NCBI RefSeq assembly: GCF_000177375.1
Contig: NZ_ADFR01000003.1
Coordinates: 62,001-126,000, forward strand
DNA length: 64,000 bases
From: Bulleidia extructa W1219
Lineage (GTDB): Bacteria; Bacillota_I; Bacilli_A; Erysipelotrichales; Erysipelotrichaceae
Reading direction: 5' to 3'
Below are positions 1 through 39,603 of this stretch, one piece after another. How positions within the stretch are numbered: the first letter of the stretch is position 1; each line of letters begins with the position of its first letter. Under the pieces are notes generated by a model. The model searched no databases. It was not told where the DNA came from and saw only the letters and a program-made list of their open reading frames with translations. The position numbers and the translations under genes are program-made.

Positions 1-644
1 GTGACTGTACCACCAAGTGTTCCTAAAGGATTACCAATGACAATAGCAGTATCTCCAATACTAATCTTAGAGGAATCTCCTAAAGTAGCCGGTGTTAAAT
101 TTTTGCCCTCTATCTTTAAAACAGCAATATCACTCTTTGGATCAGCTCCAACTAATTTAGCTGTGTATTCTTTTCCATCGTTAGTCTTAACTTTGATGGA
201 AGTCGCATTTTTGATCACATGATTATTTGTCAAAATATAACCATCTTTGGAAATAATCACTCCAGACCCAGCAGAATTAGAAGTATAATTACCACCTAAG
301 AAACCATAAGTTTTTCCTTTTGACTCTGTTCTGATCTCAACAACGGAAGGAGCTGCTTTTTTAGCGGCTTGACTAACCGTTAAACCTTGACCATTTTTAA
401 CAGAAGTGGTTTTGGATGGTGGTTCAGCCGCAGATTGGTACACCACTGCAGAACCTTTAGAACTTTTACTAACCACATAGCCACTAGCTCCACCAACGGC
501 GACGCATAAAATTAAATTTAAGAGTGTTTTATTGATTTTTAAAACAAAGCTAGGTTTTTTGGTCGGTTTTGGATTGTTTTCGACCCTAGAAGTTTCTTCC
601 ACTTTATCTTCTACTTTATTTTCTTCAGAATGAAATTCAGACAT
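1..644 (-). CDS. htrA: HtrA/DegP-like membrane-anchored serine protease (3' part outside window)
   Basis: Surface quality-control protease that degrades misfolded exported proteins. Reading leftwards from ATG at 644-642, the protein has a charged Lys/Glu/Pro-rich cytoplasmic tail (1-38), one membrane segment (about 41-58), a linker, and the start of a trypsin-like domain. The catalytic His lies in TNNHVI (His142) and the Asp in DPKSDIAVL (Asp172). The catalytic Ser would fall beyond the window edge, so the gene is partial but not visibly broken. The start is supported by AGGAGGTC 5-12 nt upstream. The gene is divergent from the SseB-like gene. Its promoter carries TTCA direct repeats of response-regulator type (see separate entry). 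Confidence 0.9.
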   Translation of the reverse strand, partial: MSEFHSEENKVEDKVEETSRVENNPKPTKKPSFVLKINKTLLNLILCVAVGGASGYVVSKSSKGSAVVYQSAAEPPSKTTSVKNGQGLTVSQAAKKAAPSVVEIRTESKGKTYGFLGGNYTSNSAGSGVIISKDGYILTNNHVIKNATSIKVKTNDGKEYTAKLVGADPKSDIAVLKIEGKNLTPATLGDSSKISIGDTAIVIGNPLGTLGGTV

Positions 645-672: not shown

Positions 673-714
673 ATTATACTAGTGTTCATTTGTGAAGTTT
701 GGGTGAATTTTGAA
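673..714 (-). promoter_or_regulatory. htrA promoter with 11-bp spaced TTCA half-sites
   Basis: On the minus strand TATAAT (678-673) lies 28 nt before the htrA start codon. Upstream are TTCA words at 696-693, 707-704 and 714-711. The first two are 11 bp apart (one helical turn), and the proximal one is 14 nt from the -10 box. No good -35 hexamer is present, so an activator of the OmpR/PhoB class is plausible (inference). A similar half-site arrangement occurs before the small RNA genes near 38.6 kb. Confidence 0.55.
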
Positions 715-13158: not shown

Positions 13159-15336
13159 ATGAAGAAAGTGATATATGGGCTTTTAACCATCACCATGGTT
13201 GTAAGTCTTGTGGGATGTTCTGGTAGTGCTAAATATAAACCTGGTGTGTATACGGGATCTTCTAAGGGACATAGTAGTGAAGTTAAGGTGACCGCCACCT
13301 TTTCAAAAAATAAAATTGAAAAAGTGTCCATTGATGCTCATGGGGAAACAGCTTCTATTGGTCAAGCGGCTGTGGAACAGTTGATGAAAAATATTCAGAC
13401 TAAACAAAACGCTGAATTTGATGCAGTGACAGGAGCAACGGAAACAAGTGAGGCAGTTCGAAGAGCTTTAAAGGCTACTTTCAATCAAGCCAGTACTTCT
13501 ATGGAAAAGAAAGAAAAAACAGCACTGAAAGATGGCACATACAGTGCTATTACCAATTCATTTTCTGTCACAGGACAAATGAAGGGTGAGGTAACTATTA
13601 AAGATGGTAAAATAGCGGGTATTAGAATTACGGAAGAAAGTGATAGTCGTACAGGACCGTGGTTTGAACAAGCTAAGATGAAATTTATTCCCCGTTTACT
13701 GGCCAGTCAATCTTTAGCAACGGATTCTGTCACAGGAGCTACCACTTCTTCATCAGCGATTCGTAGTTTGGTTTCCTCCGCTATTGATCAAGCTGGTGGT
13801 AAGAGTGATGAATGGTATACACCGGTTCAAAAAAAGAATCATACAGTGAAATTAGATGGTTATGATGTCATTGTGGTTGGTTTAGGAGGATCGGGTATTT
13901 TATCATATGCTAGTGCCGCGGATCAAGGAGCTAAGGTTTTTGGTTTAGAAGCGGCTGCTCAAATCGGCGGTAATTCCGCTTCTGCGTATGGACCAATGGC
14001 TTTAAATTCTAAAAATTTAGCGAAAAAGTACAATGGTGGTAAAGAGTATATTTCGATGAGTGAAGTGTATAAAACTTGGTTGAAGTATGTGGGGACGGAT
14101 AAAAAGGCGGATGTCATTAAAAAAGCCGTTGAACAATCCGGTACAGCATTGGATTATTATATGGATCAATATGGATTTTCTTTTGATGGATTGGGCGGCT
14201 TGTTGGGATCTTTTGTCGTTCCAAGTTGGACAAAATTATGGGCAGCTTATACCGCTGATCAAGGGAATAAAAAGTGGTATACTTTCGGACCGGATCATAT
14301 GTTTCAATTTAGGCATGCCCTGGAAAAAGCGAAAGCGAAGAATGGAAAAAATGACTATCAATTAGAACTGACAGCCCAAGAATTATTAAAAGATGACAAG
14401 GGAAATGTGATAGGAGTCAAAGCTGTTTCTTATGATGGAACGATTTATGAAATTTTTGGTAAATCCGTGATTTTAGCTACCGGTGGTTTTTTGGGAAATG
14501 AAGAAATGTTAAAGGAAGTATATGGTTCTAGTATTCGCCCAATTGGGAATACGGTAAATAAGGGTAGTGGCATTAAGATGGGACAATCGGTTGGTGGTGT
14601 GACTTACGCTATGAAGTCTTTACCAATGGTTCATGTTTCACAAGTGCCAAATATCATTCGTGATAACTCTTTAAATCCTAATCAAAAGGCTATTTTATCA
14701 GCTATGGCAACCACAACTGATGGTAAACAAGTGGATGAAACAGGTAGGAAGTTAGATCGTATGGATCAAACTGTCACAGAAAATATGGAAGGGTCTACAG
14801 GGATTGTTCATACTCCCGGATTCCACTTTTATAACGTGTATAGTCAAGAAGATATTGATACGATAAAAACAAAGGGTTTAAGTGAAAAAACTTCAAAAAT
14901 TTCGATTTTCGGCTTGGGACAAGGGGGTAAAGTACCAGCTAGCGGCACGCCAATTAAAGATATTGATAAAATCATTGAAGTAGCTATCAATACCAATAAC
15001 GCTTGGAAAGGAACCCCGGCGGAATTGGCGAAGAAGTTGAACATGAAAGAAGAAGAGTTAGTGAAATCATTAGGTGATAAAGATAAAAACTATTACTTGT
15101 TTGAAAGTGCTGCTTATTCTTATGGAACCGTTGGTTCTTTAGATGTGGATCAGAATATGAATGTTTTAAAGAAAGATGGTCGTCCAATTAAAAATCTATT
15201 TGCGGTTGGTCAAGATTCACAAGGAGTTTGTAATCAGGATGGGAAGGCTTATACACCTTGGGGTGGTCAAGCTCAATCTTGGACATTTGTTTCTGGGAAG
15301 ATTGCGGGTGAACAAGCGGCTAAATTAGCAAAATAA
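13159..15336 (+). CDS. Flavinylated lipoprotein reductase: two FMN-binding domains plus fumarate-reductase-type flavoprotein
   Basis: 725 residues from ATG 13159, chosen for the GAGGGAGAAG RBS; in-frame TTG 13138 and ATG 13141 are less likely. The lipoprotein signal ends in LVGC, so the protein is exported and lipid-anchored. Two FMN_bind domains follow, with covalent FMN attachment motifs DAVTGAT (Thr94) and DSVTGAT (Thr195) of the type modified by ApbE. From about 235 there is an FAD_binding_2 / fumarate-reductase module (VIVVGLGGSG, ILATGGF). Known relatives are extracellular electron-accepting reductases for fumarate, urocanate and similar compounds; the substrate here cannot be told. The NusG-II and Gx genes follow. 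Confidence 0.85.
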   Translation: MKKVIYGLLTITMVVSLVGCSGSAKYKPGVYTGSSKGHSSEVKVTATFSKNKIEKVSIDAHGETASIGQAAVEQLMKNIQTKQNAEFDAVTGATETSEAVRRALKATFNQASTSMEKKEKTALKDGTYSAITNSFSVTGQMKGEVTIKDGKIAGIRITEESDSRTGPWFEQAKMKFIPRLLASQSLATDSVTGATTSSSAIRSLVSSAIDQAGGKSDEWYTPVQKKNHTVKLDGYDVIVVGLGGSGILSYASAADQGAKVFGLEAAAQIGGNSASAYGPMALNSKNLAKKYNGGKEYISMSEVYKTWLKYVGTDKKADVIKKAVEQSGTALDYYMDQYGFSFDGLGGLLGSFVVPSWTKLWAAYTADQGNKKWYTFGPDHMFQFRHALEKAKAKNGKNDYQLELTAQELLKDDKGNVIGVKAVSYDGTIYEIFGKSVILATGGFLGNEEMLKEVYGSSIRPIGNTVNKGSGIKMGQSVGGVTYAMKSLPMVHVSQVPNIIRDNSLNPNQKAILSAMATTTDGKQVDETGRKLDRMDQTVTENMEGSTGIVHTPGFHFYNVYSQEDIDTIKTKGLSEKTSKISIFGLGQGGKVPASGTPIKDIDKIIEVAINTNNAWKGTPAELAKKLNMKEEELVKSLGDKDKNYYLFESAAYSYGTVGSLDVDQNMNVLKKDGRPIKNLFAVGQDSQGVCNQDGKAYTPWGGQAQSWTFVSGKIAGEQAAKLAK

Positions 15337-22571: not shown

Positions 22572-24245
22572 ATGAATCTTAGTAGTTTGCGATGGGATGT
22601 GATTTTAGGGGGATTCGGTTTATTCCTCTTTGGCATTGGCTTTATGGGAGATGGTTTAAAAGCTATTGCTGGTGATCAATTAAGAGATTATATCAATAAA
22701 TATACCACCAACCCGTTTTCCGCTTTGATCATCGGTATTTTGATTACCATTATTATGCAATCTTCTTCGGCTTCAACAGCTATTACGATTGGATTGGTAC
22801 GTGCCGGGTTGATGACCTTACCGCAAGCTGCAGGCATCATTATGGGAGCCAACATTGGGACGACTTTTACTTCCTTACTGATCTCTTTAAATATTGATAA
22901 TTATGTTTTATATTTTGTATTCTTTGGTGCTATTGTCGTTAGTTTTGCTAAGAAAGTAAAGATAAAATCAGTTGGAACCATTGTAATGGGTTTCGGTTTG
23001 ATATTCTATGGCTTAAACTCAATGGGATCGGCTTTAAGCGCCATTAAAGATTTACCGGAATTTACGAAGTTTGCGACAGATATGGCTAATAATCCGTTCT
23101 TAGGTTTATTGGCAGGGACGCTGATGACAGGGGCTGTGCAGGCTTCTTCAGCCACTATCGGTATTGTACAAAAATTATATGCGGCTGGTGCTTTGCAATT
23201 TATTGCAGTCTTACCTTTTGTCTTCGGGGCTAATATTGGAACGACGGTAACAGGTATTTTGGCTTGTATTGGCGGTAGTACAGCGGCTAAAAGAACGGCC
23301 GGAATTCATATTCTATTTAATATTATCGGAACAGCGATTGGAATGATTTTCTTACATCCATATGCTCGTTTTATTCTATGGATCTCACAAATTTTTGGTA
23401 TTTCCGGCATGGCTCAGTTAGCGGTGGCACATATTATTTTTAATACGACAGCGACGATCGTTTTCTTCCCATTTATGAACCAATTCTGTAACTTGATTCG
23501 TAAGATTCTTCCAGGAGAAGAGCCTAAGCGTATTGAAATCAATATTGATGAGTTGACGACTAATTTAGCAGCTAATACGCTTCCTTCCGTGGCGATTGAT
23601 TCAGCGAAGACAGCGATTGTCAAGATGGCTTCCGTGGTTGACCAAGATAACCAAGACACAAGAGATTATCTGAATAAACCGGGTAATAGCGAAGATCATG
23701 AAAACTTAATGACAGGAGAAAATACGGTCAATAAGTTGGATAAGAAGATCACTGAATTCTTAATTGCCATCTCGAAGAATCAACAACTAACTCCATCAGA
23801 TCAAACCGAGTTACGGCGGGGATTGGAAATCACGAAAAATCTAGAACGTATTGGTGATTTAGGAGTGAATCTGGTAGAATTCTTTGATATGGTTCGAGAG
23901 GATAAATCCACCTTCTCACCGGTGGCTATTGTAGATATGAATACCATGTTTGATGAATTGAATGAAATGATGAAACTATGTATTCGTGTTTATGAAGAAC
24001 GTGATGAAAAGGTGTATCACGAATTGATGGAAAAAGAAAATGAAATGGATGAAACGGAGTATGCTGCTAGACAAGGGCATTTTACACGGATGGCTAATGG
24101 TGATTGTCATTCCTCGGTTGCTTCATCGGTTTATGTAGATATTTTAGGAACGATTGAACGTATGGGAGATCATGCTTGTAATATTGCCCGATCAGCTATT
24201 TTGGATTACGTAGATCAAGATGAACCCGGTTTTGAAAAGCATTGA
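22572..24245 (+). CDS. Na+/phosphate symporter (NptA family) with PhoU-like C-terminal domain
   Basis: 557 residues. The membrane part (about 1-310) has two inverted repeats, each with the QSSSA signature: MQSSSASTAITIG (about 63) and VQASSATIGIVQ (about 185), plus the GANIGTT motifs (about 95 and 215). The C-terminal PhoU-like helical domain (about 340-540, with LERIGDLGVNLVE and IERMGDHACNIAR) is usual in this family and thought to regulate the symporter. RBS ATGGAGG. Ends in a strong terminator. Confidence 0.9.
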   Translation: MNLSSLRWDVILGGFGLFLFGIGFMGDGLKAIAGDQLRDYINKYTTNPFSALIIGILITIIMQSSSASTAITIGLVRAGLMTLPQAAGIIMGANIGTTFTSLLISLNIDNYVLYFVFFGAIVVSFAKKVKIKSVGTIVMGFGLIFYGLNSMGSALSAIKDLPEFTKFATDMANNPFLGLLAGTLMTGAVQASSATIGIVQKLYAAGALQFIAVLPFVFGANIGTTVTGILACIGGSTAAKRTAGIHILFNIIGTAIGMIFLHPYARFILWISQIFGISGMAQLAVAHIIFNTTATIVFFPFMNQFCNLIRKILPGEEPKRIEINIDELTTNLAANTLPSVAIDSAKTAIVKMASVVDQDNQDTRDYLNKPGNSEDHENLMTGENTVNKLDKKITEFLIAISKNQQLTPSDQTELRRGLEITKNLERIGDLGVNLVEFFDMVREDKSTFSPVAIVDMNTMFDELNEMMKLCIRVYEERDEKVYHELMEKENEMDETEYAARQGHFTRMANGDCHSSVASSVYVDILGTIERMGDHACNIARSAILDYVDQDEPGFEKH

Positions 24246-37298: not shown

Positions 37299-38233
37299 GT
37301 CGTTTAATTCCAGTATGGATTGATACAGACACCGGAGTGGATGATGCGGTTGCTTTATTATGTGCTTTTCAGTTGGATCATCTTTTGATAAAAGGGATTT
37401 CAGCAGTAGCTGGAAATGTAGGGCATGATCGAACTTTCGTGAATGCTAGAAATGTTTGTTCTTTAGCAAAAAAAGAGGATATTAAAGTTTATCCTGGAGC
37501 GCATAAACCTTTAATGATTGATTTACAGGATGCGGCTTTTGTACATGGAAAAGATGGTTTGGGTGGTGCTATTATCCCGGAGTCAAAAGCTATCGTAGAA
37601 GAAAAAAAGGCATGGGATGCCCTCTATGAAGCGGCTTTGGAAGCTAAAGGTAATTTAGAAATTGTGGCGGTTGGACCGCTAACGAATATTGCTATCAGTT
37701 TGTATAAACATCCTGATTTAACACAATATGTGAAGCGTATCTTAATTATGGGTGGAGCTGCTATGGGCGGTAATTGTACACCTTGCTCAGAATTTAATAT
37801 CCATACGGATCCTCATGCGGCAGAAACAGTCTTTAAGTGCGGTATTCCTATTGTTATGTTTGGCTTAGATGTGACCATGAAGGCTTATCTTGAAGTAGAA
37901 GAAGTTCAAAAAATGGCACAAGACAAAACGGCAGTTTCAGAATTTTACCTAGAATCCACAAAATCAAATATTGATCTATACACCCGTTATTATCGACCAA
38001 TGTTATGTTTACACGATGTTTGTCCTGTCCTGTATTTGAAATATCCAGATCTTTTCACAGGAAAAAAAGCCGGTGTCTATGTAGAAACACAAGGAGAAAT
38101 CAGCTTTGGTAAAACAGTAACGGATCTATGGAGTGATGCTAAGTTTCCAAAACGTCAGACACTTGTGATCCTGGATGTTAAGCGAAATCAATTTAGAGAT
38201 GTAGTGGCGAAGCTATTAGCTAAATATAAATGA
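37295..38233 (+). CDS. Inosine/uridine-preferring nucleoside hydrolase, copy 2
   Basis: 312 residues, same fold as the preceding gene but clearly diverged: IDTDTGVDDAVALL (about 8-21), AVGPLTNIAISL, MGGAAMGGNCTPCSEFNIHTDPHAAE and LHDVCPVL. Active-site Asp residues are all kept. The two copies differ in the base-recognition region, so purine versus pyrimidine preference may be split between them (inference). Stop codon is followed at once by a bidirectional terminator. Confidence 0.93.
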   Translation: MSRLIPVWIDTDTGVDDAVALLCAFQLDHLLIKGISAVAGNVGHDRTFVNARNVCSLAKKEDIKVYPGAHKPLMIDLQDAAFVHGKDGLGGAIIPESKAIVEEKKAWDALYEAALEAKGNLEIVAVGPLTNIAISLYKHPDLTQYVKRILIMGGAAMGGNCTPCSEFNIHTDPHAAETVFKCGIPIVMFGLDVTMKAYLEVEEVQKMAQDKTAVSEFYLESTKSNIDLYTRYYRPMLCLHDVCPVLYLKYPDLFTGKKAGVYVETQGEISFGKTVTDLWSDAKFPKRQTLVILDVKRNQFRDVVAKLLAKYK

Positions 38234-38262
38234 AAAACCACTTTTGAAGAAGTGGTTTTTCA
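38233..38262. terminator. Bidirectional terminator: salvage operon (+) and third small RNA (-)
   Basis: Stem AAAAACCACTT / AAGTGGTTTTT with a 6-nt loop; runs of A on the left and T on the right give a poly-U tail in both directions. It ends the nucleoside operon and also serves as the 3' end of the most downstream small RNA. Confidence 0.85.
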
Positions 38263-38316
38263 TTTCATAAATATTTTTATAGGGGAGAGAATGAGTGTCA
38301 GTTCTGTTAACTGACA
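38233..38316 (-). ncRNA. Predicted tandem small RNA, third in the array
   Basis: Minus-strand -10 TATTCT (38327-38322) gives a start near 38316. 5' hairpin with 9-bp arms GTGTCAGTT / AACTGACAC (38317-38309 with 38303-38295), then the linker CTCTCCCC (38289-38282), an A/T-rich stretch and the bidirectional terminator. The 5' stem is longer than in the other two copies and the terminator is unrelated, so this copy captured a different 3' end. About 84 nt. Confidence 0.55.
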
Positions 38317-38360
38317 CCTATAGAATAAAAGAAGAATGTGGGAAGATCATGGACTTATTC

Positions 38361-38375
38361 TGAATTTTATGTGAA
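38361..38375 (-). promoter_or_regulatory. TTCA half-sites before small RNA 3
   Basis: Minus-strand TTCACATAAAA and TTCAGAATAAG (TTCA words at 38375-38372 and 38364-38361, 11 bp apart), followed by weaker TCCA and TTCT words; the TTCT word is 13 nt from the -10 box. Confidence 0.5.
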
Positions 38376-38391
38376 TTTTCAAAAAAGGGAT

Positions 38392-38467
38392 AAAAAAAAG
38401 AAAACCGACCAAAGTCGGTATCTTTTTTAATGGGAGAGAATGAAGAATCAGTTATTATTAACTGACA
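38392..38467 (-). ncRNA. Predicted tandem small RNA, second in the array
   Basis: -10 TATTCT (38478-38473), start near 38467. 5' hairpin TCAGTTA / TAACTGA (38465-38459 with 38454-38448) with loop ATAA, unpaired linker TTCTTCATTCTCTCCC, then terminator stem ACCGAC / GTCGGT (38419-38404) followed by TTTTCTTTTTTTT. About 76 nt. The CTCTCCC linker is complementary to GGGAGAG, i.e. to strong Shine-Dalgarno sequences. Confidence 0.6.
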
Positions 38468-38511
38468 CCTATAGAATAAAAGAAGAATGTGAGAAGCTCA
38501 TGGACTTATTC

Positions 38512-38526
38512 TGAATTTTATGTGAA
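38512..38526 (-). promoter_or_regulatory. TTCA half-sites before small RNA 2
   Basis: TTCA words at 38526-38523 and 38515-38512, 11 bp apart, identical in arrangement to those before small RNA 3. Confidence 0.5.
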
Positions 38527-38541
38527 TTTTCAAAAAAAGAT

Positions 38542-38616
38542 AAAAAAAGAAAACCGACCAAAGTCGGTATCTTTTTTAATGGGAGAGAATGAAGAATCAG
38601 TTATCATTAACTGACA
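38542..38616 (-). ncRNA. Predicted tandem small RNA, first in the array
   Basis: -10 TATAGT (38627-38622), start near 38616. 5' hairpin TCAGTTA / TAACTGA (38614-38608 with 38603-38597), loop ATGA, CTCTCCC linker (38587-38581), terminator stem ACCGAC / GTCGGT (38568-38553) and TTTTCTTTTTTT. About 75 nt. The stem pairs are kept between copies while the loop varies, which supports an RNA-level function. Confidence 0.6.
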
Positions 38617-38640
38617 CCTATACTATACCGATAGGGTGTG

Positions 38641-38675
38641 TGAAATAAATGAAGGTTATGTGAATTTTACCTGAA
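38641..38675 (-). promoter_or_regulatory. Four TTCA half-sites before small RNA 1
   Basis: TTCA at 38675-38672, 38664-38661 and 38653-38650 with strict 11-bp period, and a fourth at 38644-38641 (9 bp further), 13 nt from the -10 box. The -35 position has no good hexamer. The pattern suits cooperative binding of an OmpR/PhoB-type response regulator. The remaining 38676-38782 stretch shows no gene. Confidence 0.55.
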
Positions 38676-38783
38676 CTTTTAAAAATAGATGCTAGGTGTT
38701 TAAACTAAAAGTAAAGAGGGTCGAACTATCGGTATTACGATAATCAGAGCAATTCTTTGTTAGAAAAATTTCTGAAAGAACGA

Positions 38784-38817: not shown

Positions 38818-39603
38818 ATGAAAACCATTTTTTTTGATATAGATGGCACTTTATTATCTTTTCAAACACATCGTATATCTAAACAAACTTTACAATCATT
38901 ATATTGCTTGAAAGAAAAGGGATTTCGCTTAGCTTTAGCAAGTGGACGACCACCGATTCAACTGCCGACATTGGATTCTTCTTTAATGAGTTTTCCATGG
39001 GACGGATATGTTTTAATGAATGGTCAATATGTTTTGAATGAGAAAAAAGAGTGTATTTATGAATTGCCGATCTCGAAAAACAGTGTGAAAAAGGCTTTTG
39101 ACTATATGGCGAAAACAGAGGCTTTTTGTGCTTATTTTGCAAAGGATCAATCCTTTCATGTTTGTCGAAACAAAGACGTGATGGATCAATTTAAAAAAAG
39201 GCTTCCTGCCACCTATTTCTATGAGCCAAAAAGTTTAGATGAAATTTTAGAAAAACCTATTTATCAAATATGCCCTTACATTCCAAAAGAACAGGATTCT
39301 CTTTTTTTAAAGGCTGTTCCTGCTTTGAAATCGCAAAGATGGACAGAGACATTTGCAGATATGATTCCCAAGGAAGGTGGGAAGTCAGAAGGAATTGAAA
39401 AAGCCGTTGAATTACTTGGCTTTTCGAAGGACTGGATTTGTTTTGGAGATGGTGGAAATGATAAAACCATGATTCAAAAAGCAGAATTGGGAATTGCCAT
39501 GGGTAATGCAAGCGAAGAAGTTAAATCGGTAGCGGATTATGTGACAGCAAACGTGGATGAAGAAGGTGTTACCAAAGCATTAGAACATTTTGGATTTTTA
39601 TAA
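38818..39603 (+). CDS. Cof-type HAD phosphatase
   Basis: 261 residues. Cof/IIB HAD hydrolase that dephosphorylates small phosphate esters such as sugar phosphates or flavin mononucleotide. Motif I FFDIDGTLLS (nucleophile Asp6), motif II ALASGRPP, motif III Lys in EGGKSEGIEKA, motif IV FGDGGNDKTMI. The C2 cap is between motifs II and III. Probably leaderless (see promoter). Followed by a small conserved gene after 35 nt. Confidence 0.9.
   Translation: MKTIFFDIDGTLLSFQTHRISKQTLQSLYCLKEKGFRLALASGRPPIQLPTLDSSLMSFPWDGYVLMNGQYVLNEKKECIYELPISKNSVKKAFDYMAKTEAFCAYFAKDQSFHVCRNKDVMDQFKKRLPATYFYEPKSLDEILEKPIYQICPYIPKEQDSLFLKAVPALKSQRWTETFADMIPKEGGKSEGIEKAVELLGFSKDWICFGDGGNDKTMIQKAELGIAMGNASEEVKSVADYVTANVDEEGVTKALEHFGFL

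Follow-up and report, generated by a model that had tools for sequence, protein, structure and literature searches.

The minus strand at 38228-38690 of the window (the whole stretch of 64,000 nucleotides of Bulleidia extructa W1219 DNA analyzed here) carries three complete activator-type transcription units, and these belong to an undescribed small RNA (sRNA) family that is found across the genus. Taking the evidence together, we consider it highly probable that they are three paralogous genes for trans-acting sRNAs, activated by an mrp-linked response regulator (RR), with a linker that likely blocks translation under envelope or folding stress. The sequence itself shows the units and their family, together with the spacing, covariation, and shared sites; expression, regulator binding, signal, and mode of action are predicted from it. 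What appears to be new is a two-component-controlled sRNA family within a CiaRH-like regulon that has another regulator and another site.

Architecture of the array

The genome (G000; 1.42 Mb in 16 contigs, 36.3% GC) holds the array between two plus-strand genes, a nucleoside hydrolase gene ending at 38233 and a HAD hydrolase gene starting at 38818; the array is thus not the leader of any minus-strand gene. A preliminary description of this DNA had proposed three tandem sRNA genes on a 149-bp repeat, each with TTCA half-sites of 11-bp period, a -10 box, a TCAGTTA/TAACTGA-type hairpin, a CTCTCCC stretch, and a terminator, the third copy having a longer hairpin and another terminator. We recovered all of these elements in each copy, along with the peculiarities of the third, and can add that every promoter contains four half-sites. 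The 149-nt copies occupy 38242-38390 (C), 38393-38541 (B), and 38542-38690 (A, transcribed first), are 69-83% identical to the middle copy, and give a Tandem Repeats Finder score of 594. Each unit begins with four half-sites spaced by 11 bp and a -10 box that lacks a -35; its RNA part then has a 5' hairpin, a CUCUCCC linker that is single-stranded, and a terminator. No usable -35 hexamer was found at the right place in the array promoters, as expected for activator-dependent promoters.

All features of the array lie on the minus strand, and both ends of each sRNA are predicted. The copy A promoter (38637-38675) has the half-sites TTCAGG, TTCACA, TTCATT, and CACACA with an 11-bp period, and its -10 box TATAGT (38622-38627) lies 9 nt past the fourth half-site. 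The sRNA of ~78 nt (38540-38617) would comprise a hairpin (38597-38614), the CUCUCCC linker (38581-38587), and a terminator stem (38553-38568). Copy B has a promoter at 38488-38526 (TTCACA, TTCAGA, TCCATG, CTCACA), the -10 box TATTCT at 38473-38478, and a putative sRNA of ~79 nt (38390-38468) with its hairpin at 38448-38465, linker at 38432-38438, and terminator stem at 38404-38419. In copy C the promoter (38337-38375; TTCACA, TTCAGA, TCCATG, CCCACA) and the -10 box TATTCT (38322-38327) precede a putative sRNA of ~90 nt (38228-38317), with a longer hairpin (38295-38317), the linker (38283-38289), and a terminator (38228-38265) that is unrelated to those of A and B and can serve the nucleoside hydrolase transcript of the plus strand as well. 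Half-sites of the window such as TTCAGA and TCCATG are degenerate, which speaks against the proposed reading. Compared with dinucleotide shuffles, the RNAs reach folding z-scores of -4.8 (A, 78 nt), -6.4 (B, 79 nt), and -8.1 (C, 90 nt). The motif CTCTCCC occurs just three times in the window, once per unit and always on the minus strand.

An sRNA family across the genus

The preliminary description had suggested a covariance-model search. Built from the three array copies (promoter, hairpin, and linker) and applied with a cut-off of E <= 0.1, such a model found matches in 21 of 70 genus genomes; when the exact promoter pattern was used as well, 38 genomes showed evidence of a relative. The more distant matches retain the layout and differ in sequence. 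BLASTN matches in 40 relatives were rejected as chance. Lineage I is the window type (UCAUUCUCUCCC; two to three copies), lineage II carries UUUCUUUCCCUCCC or UUUCUUUCCCCCU in a single copy, and lineage III forms arrays of two to four copies adjoining dus-type genes, with C-runs in the terminator loops too. Related arrays by dus-type genes were seen in G071 (L052, four units) and G068 (L074, two units), with C-runs in both terminator loops and linker.

A pattern scan of GTDB genomes returned 56 stretches, 36 of which were kept as having the sRNA-unit layout; a strict window-type pattern gave zero matches in GTDB genomes. The kept stretches come from rumen and gut Solobacterium/Erysipelotrichaceae MAGs, Lactimicrobium massiliense, strain NK3D112, a Holdemania MAG, and one Lachnospiraceae MAG. 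The last (L149) contributes a single sRNA-like unit whose promoter is laid out alike, although the MAG stands outside the Erysipelotrichaceae; a binning error is possible. Most of the stretches left out look like chance, those of Aquificota excepted (Persephonella and Hydrogenothermaceae; L113, L114, L119, L130, L137, L146). There, a recurring locus has TTTCACA-N4-TTTCACA, and the box is followed by a run such as CCTCCTCCCCTCTCCCTCCTTTCCC and then a terminator-like end. It looks like another C-rich sRNA, probably without common descent with the present family.

Rfam release 15 contains no family matching the array or the tested relatives' sRNA loci at gathering score, and we found no published sRNA work on the clade of this family. 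For B. extructa PP_925 (1.38 Mb, 36.1% GC), the only ncRNAs given are the RNase P and SRP RNAs (PMC12786226).

Judged by its pattern of substitutions, the 5' hairpin structure is selected. In a 35-row alignment (A4), 93% of the cells in the 5' helix are paired, and five of its seven pairs show changes on both sides. Covariation in this helix amounts to 0.249, compared with 0.067 for shuffled and at most 0.043 for slid alignments, figures that lean in favor of the structure since A4 was fitted to it. Folding z-scores obtained independently of A4 point the same way: they average -2.3 over 53 distinct relatives and lie below -1 in 77%, though about a fifth of the 53 lack a stable 5' hairpin. All 53 conform to an arrangement of four half-sites followed by a -10 box at a fixed offset. 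The earlier reading of the repeats as sRNA genes is supported by the relatives, which keep the promoter spacing, a covarying hairpin, the C-rich linker, and a terminator.

Linker pairing and candidate targets

The linker 5'-CAUUCUCUCCC lies unpaired between hairpin and terminator, as in csRNAs, and is complementary to a Shine-Dalgarno sequence plus start codon (GGGAGAGAAUG). It thus spans both the Shine-Dalgarno and the AUG, as csRNAs do (PMC3091779). Its pairing with the 57 start regions of the window is better than that of 98.5% of shuffled linkers. Against such pairing, the excess over a reversed control of matches to its complement before start codons is only modest in most genomes. We regard translation repression through anti-Shine-Dalgarno pairing as the likely mode of action predicted by the sequence.

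GGGAGA pairing sites had been pointed out before the genes at 13159 and 39639. The first, preceding a flavoprotein gene, is the best-scoring of the 57 window start regions (-20.0), and the second falls outside the top 14. Elsewhere in the genome, the best candidates are the PGA_cap-type gene at G000:C14:14785 (GGGAGAGAA-N4-ATG; -22.8 kcal/mol), a gene for an extracellular solute-binding protein at C10:52568, and a LemA gene at C14:170924 (named by the Pfam families PGA_cap, SBP_bac_8, and LemA). Membrane proteins are not enriched among the candidate targets in the window (10 of 30 vs 16 of 54). Searching by Shine-Dalgarno complementarity, we found no target genes recurring across species, except between near-identical ones; the targets are thus leads only.

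This lack of a conserved target would also suit RNAs that bind a protein, acting as a sponge for an RNA-binding protein instead of pairing with mRNAs. So would the linker UUUCUUUCCC, which is nearly invariant in most relatives, as a protein site might be. On the other hand, the linker of the window type matches an anti-Shine-Dalgarno plus anti-AUG exactly, and some relatives repeat C-rich motifs in their terminator loops, as known anti-Shine-Dalgarno sRNAs do. We consider a sponge unlikely and mRNA pairing the better reading.

Promoter code and candidate regulator

The promoters of the family follow a strict geometry. We searched 51 genomes for TTCACA-N5-TTCACA-N{9,33}-TANNNT, keeping one -10 where several were possible, and obtained 97 sites, compared with two for the reversed pattern. 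The spacing is N9 at 44 sites and N31 at 27, and every other spacing occurs at most three times. The N31 class, TTCACA-N5-TTCACA-N31-TANNNT, is that of the sRNA promoters: in most relatives the -10 box begins exactly 31 nt after the first two half-sites, and the window copies have the identical offset with weaker half-sites. Since the difference of 22 equals two 11-bp half-sites, sRNA promoters have four half-sites whereas the others have two, and the distance from the last half-site to the -10 is equal in both classes.

In 22 genomes an N9 site stands before htrA, as identified from the protease translations, one of which was confirmed to contain trypsin and PDZ domains. In the window, an N9-class box (TTCACC-N5-TTCACA-N9-TAGTAT; 676-707, minus strand) stands before htrA, the gene of a presumably co-regulated S1C serine protease with PDZ domain (1-644, minus strand, start at 644, cut by the window edge). 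N9 sites also precede a single RR gene, at a locus ordered as mrp-type ATPase gene, RR gene directly after, and histidine kinase gene (mrp-RR-HK). In each of the 20 relatives tested, the box lies 51-70 bp upstream of the RR start codon, with two to four mismatches to TTTCACA-N4-TTTCACA, mostly in the first T. This RR or a close paralogue is encoded in 69 of 70 genomes (60-residue query); in the present genome it corresponds to G000:C1:55289-55942. Its own gene has no box in G000 and in relative G047, so that it is the other relatives and htrA that tie the sRNAs to this RR. No box was found before other RR genes.

The closest solved relatives of the mrp-linked RR are RegX3 and PhoP of Mycobacterium tuberculosis, both of which bind TTCAC-type direct repeats. 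Because exactly spaced sites are common to its own promoter (in relatives) and to htrA, this RegX3/PhoP-type RR is the likely regulator. The same shared sites support the earlier proposal that the sRNA genes stand under a response regulator. The genes could instead answer to another OmpR-family activator, such as the VanR/YycF-like RR at G000:C15:302031 or the RR at C14:42188. Both have orthologues in most compared genomes, and the former is also RegX3-like by sequence. However, the promoters of these two RR genes contain no box within three mismatches, and only the mrp-linked RR gene has one upstream in the relatives. We consider control by either unlikely and retain the mrp-linked RR as the candidate. 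Phosphate (Pho) control was rejected, as the sole PhoU domains in the genome are those of a Na/Pi cotransporter at 22572-24245 of the window.

Coding potential and history of the repeat

The plus strand of the copies has an ATG after a good Shine-Dalgarno and could encode small proteins in repeated form, such as MKNQLLLTDTYRIKEECEKLMDLF after GGGAGAGA. We find this very improbable: that Shine-Dalgarno is a mere complement of the anti-Shine-Dalgarno linker, the frames vary in length between copies (24, 19, and 7 codons), relatives do not preserve them, and hairpin covariation and promoter spacing account for the conservation. Least credible of all is a dispersed REP/MITE-like repeat, which the preliminary description had set against its own proposal, or a functionless chance repeat. 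The copies do form a clean tandem repeat, but BLASTN and the covariance model found no copies in G000 outside the array locus, and relatives at unrelated loci preserve the regulatory geometry, not the repeat ends.

The sRNA array appears to have a short history of its own. G047 has a syntenic two-copy array beside the nucleoside hydrolase gene; copy A matches its first copy and copy C its second (hairpin loop, CCCC, terminator), and copy B combines the RNA of A with the promoter of C. The array thus looks like a two-copy ancestor in which a segment comprising RNA A and promoter C was duplicated once in tandem, giving rise to copy B, which would explain the mosaic.

Proposed mechanism and relation to known systems

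In the proposed mechanism, envelope or folding stress would activate the histidine kinase, and the activated RR would switch on htrA and the sRNAs. Each sRNA gene would have its own activator-dependent promoter, with the OmpR/PhoB-family RR bound to four TTCACA-type half-sites at 11-bp intervals, of which the last lies 9 bp before the -10. The resulting sRNAs (78-90 nt; 5' hairpin, single-stranded C-rich linker, intrinsic terminator) would pair through the linker with Shine-Dalgarno regions, blocking translation of selected mRNAs, and additional copies would provide a higher dose.

The csRNAs of streptococci are short, multicopy, and CiaRH-controlled, and many have two stem-loops with an unpaired anti-SD/anti-AUG stretch; in S. 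sanguinis, two of them are arranged in tandem (PMC3091779, PMC8186281). CiaR, an OmpR-family RR, recognizes hexamer-N5-hexamer repeats ~10 bp upstream of the -10 and also controls htrA (PMC3091779, PMC8186281). The predicted regulon of RR, htrA, and C-rich sRNAs likely mirrors that of CiaRH, the membership of htrA being based on its site. The repeat geometry is equal as well, but the sequence is TTCACA-N5-TTCACA here and NTTAAG-N5-TTTAAG (half-site TTTAAG) for CiaR, the array promoters have four half-sites, and the host belongs to a different family of Bacillota. The recognition helix also differs, reading TLDTHIKLLRKNL in the candidate RR and VVEVYVSKVRKKL in CiaR (3 of 13 residues identical; PMC3091779). 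With half-site and helix both different, the regulator is not CiaR. The csRNA nonamer [A/C]UCCUAAA[A/C] (UCCUAAA) was not seen by eye in the window copies or the relatives inspected. The earlier suggestion of a csRNA-like yet independent family is strengthened: htrA and autoregulation are common to both systems, and the independence lies in the half-site and the recognition helix.

LhrC1-5 of Listeria offer a second comparison: they are multicopy, 111-114 nt long, and controlled by the envelope-stress two-component system LisRK, and their three UCCC sites are proven seeds that bind GGGAG Shine-Dalgarno sequences (PMC4132741). No site was defined for LisR in that study (PMC4132741). The present sRNAs are also multicopy and apparently under a two-component system; UCCC is present in their linker, and its pairing with GGGAG is predicted. 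Neither the array nor the tested relatives' loci match the Rfam LhrC family.

We think it reasonably likely that, in the Erysipelotrichaceae, a regulon of CiaRH type was assembled independently by a two-component system with a RegX3/PhoP-type RR and comprises that system, htrA, and several anti-Shine-Dalgarno sRNAs, with sRNA genes expanding in lineage-specific arrays (one to four copies in at least three lineages). If true, envelope-stress two-component systems that combine HtrA with multicopy anti-Shine-Dalgarno sRNAs would number three cases in three lineages, the present one apparently independent, suggesting that the combination is a recurring design. The clade would gain an assigned regulator, a binding-site code (N9 vs N31, i.e., two vs four half-sites), and an sRNA family.

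Further occurrences of the box

A few boxes lie elsewhere. TTCACA-N5-TTCACA stands before a Bmp/PnrA-type lipoprotein gene in two genomes (G000:C14:138668, L216; G047:C1:462612), 15-17 nt from a TANNNT, making the gene a possible further regulon member. At L043:5004 (G000:C3:12003), a 290-aa ORF without Pfam match is preceded by three half-sites spaced 11 bp apart and by a -10-like hexamer that lies in another phase. Finally, two species (L101 in G047; L107 in G068) have a near-matching box upstream of a gene resembling that for D-Tyr-tRNA deacylase (dtd).
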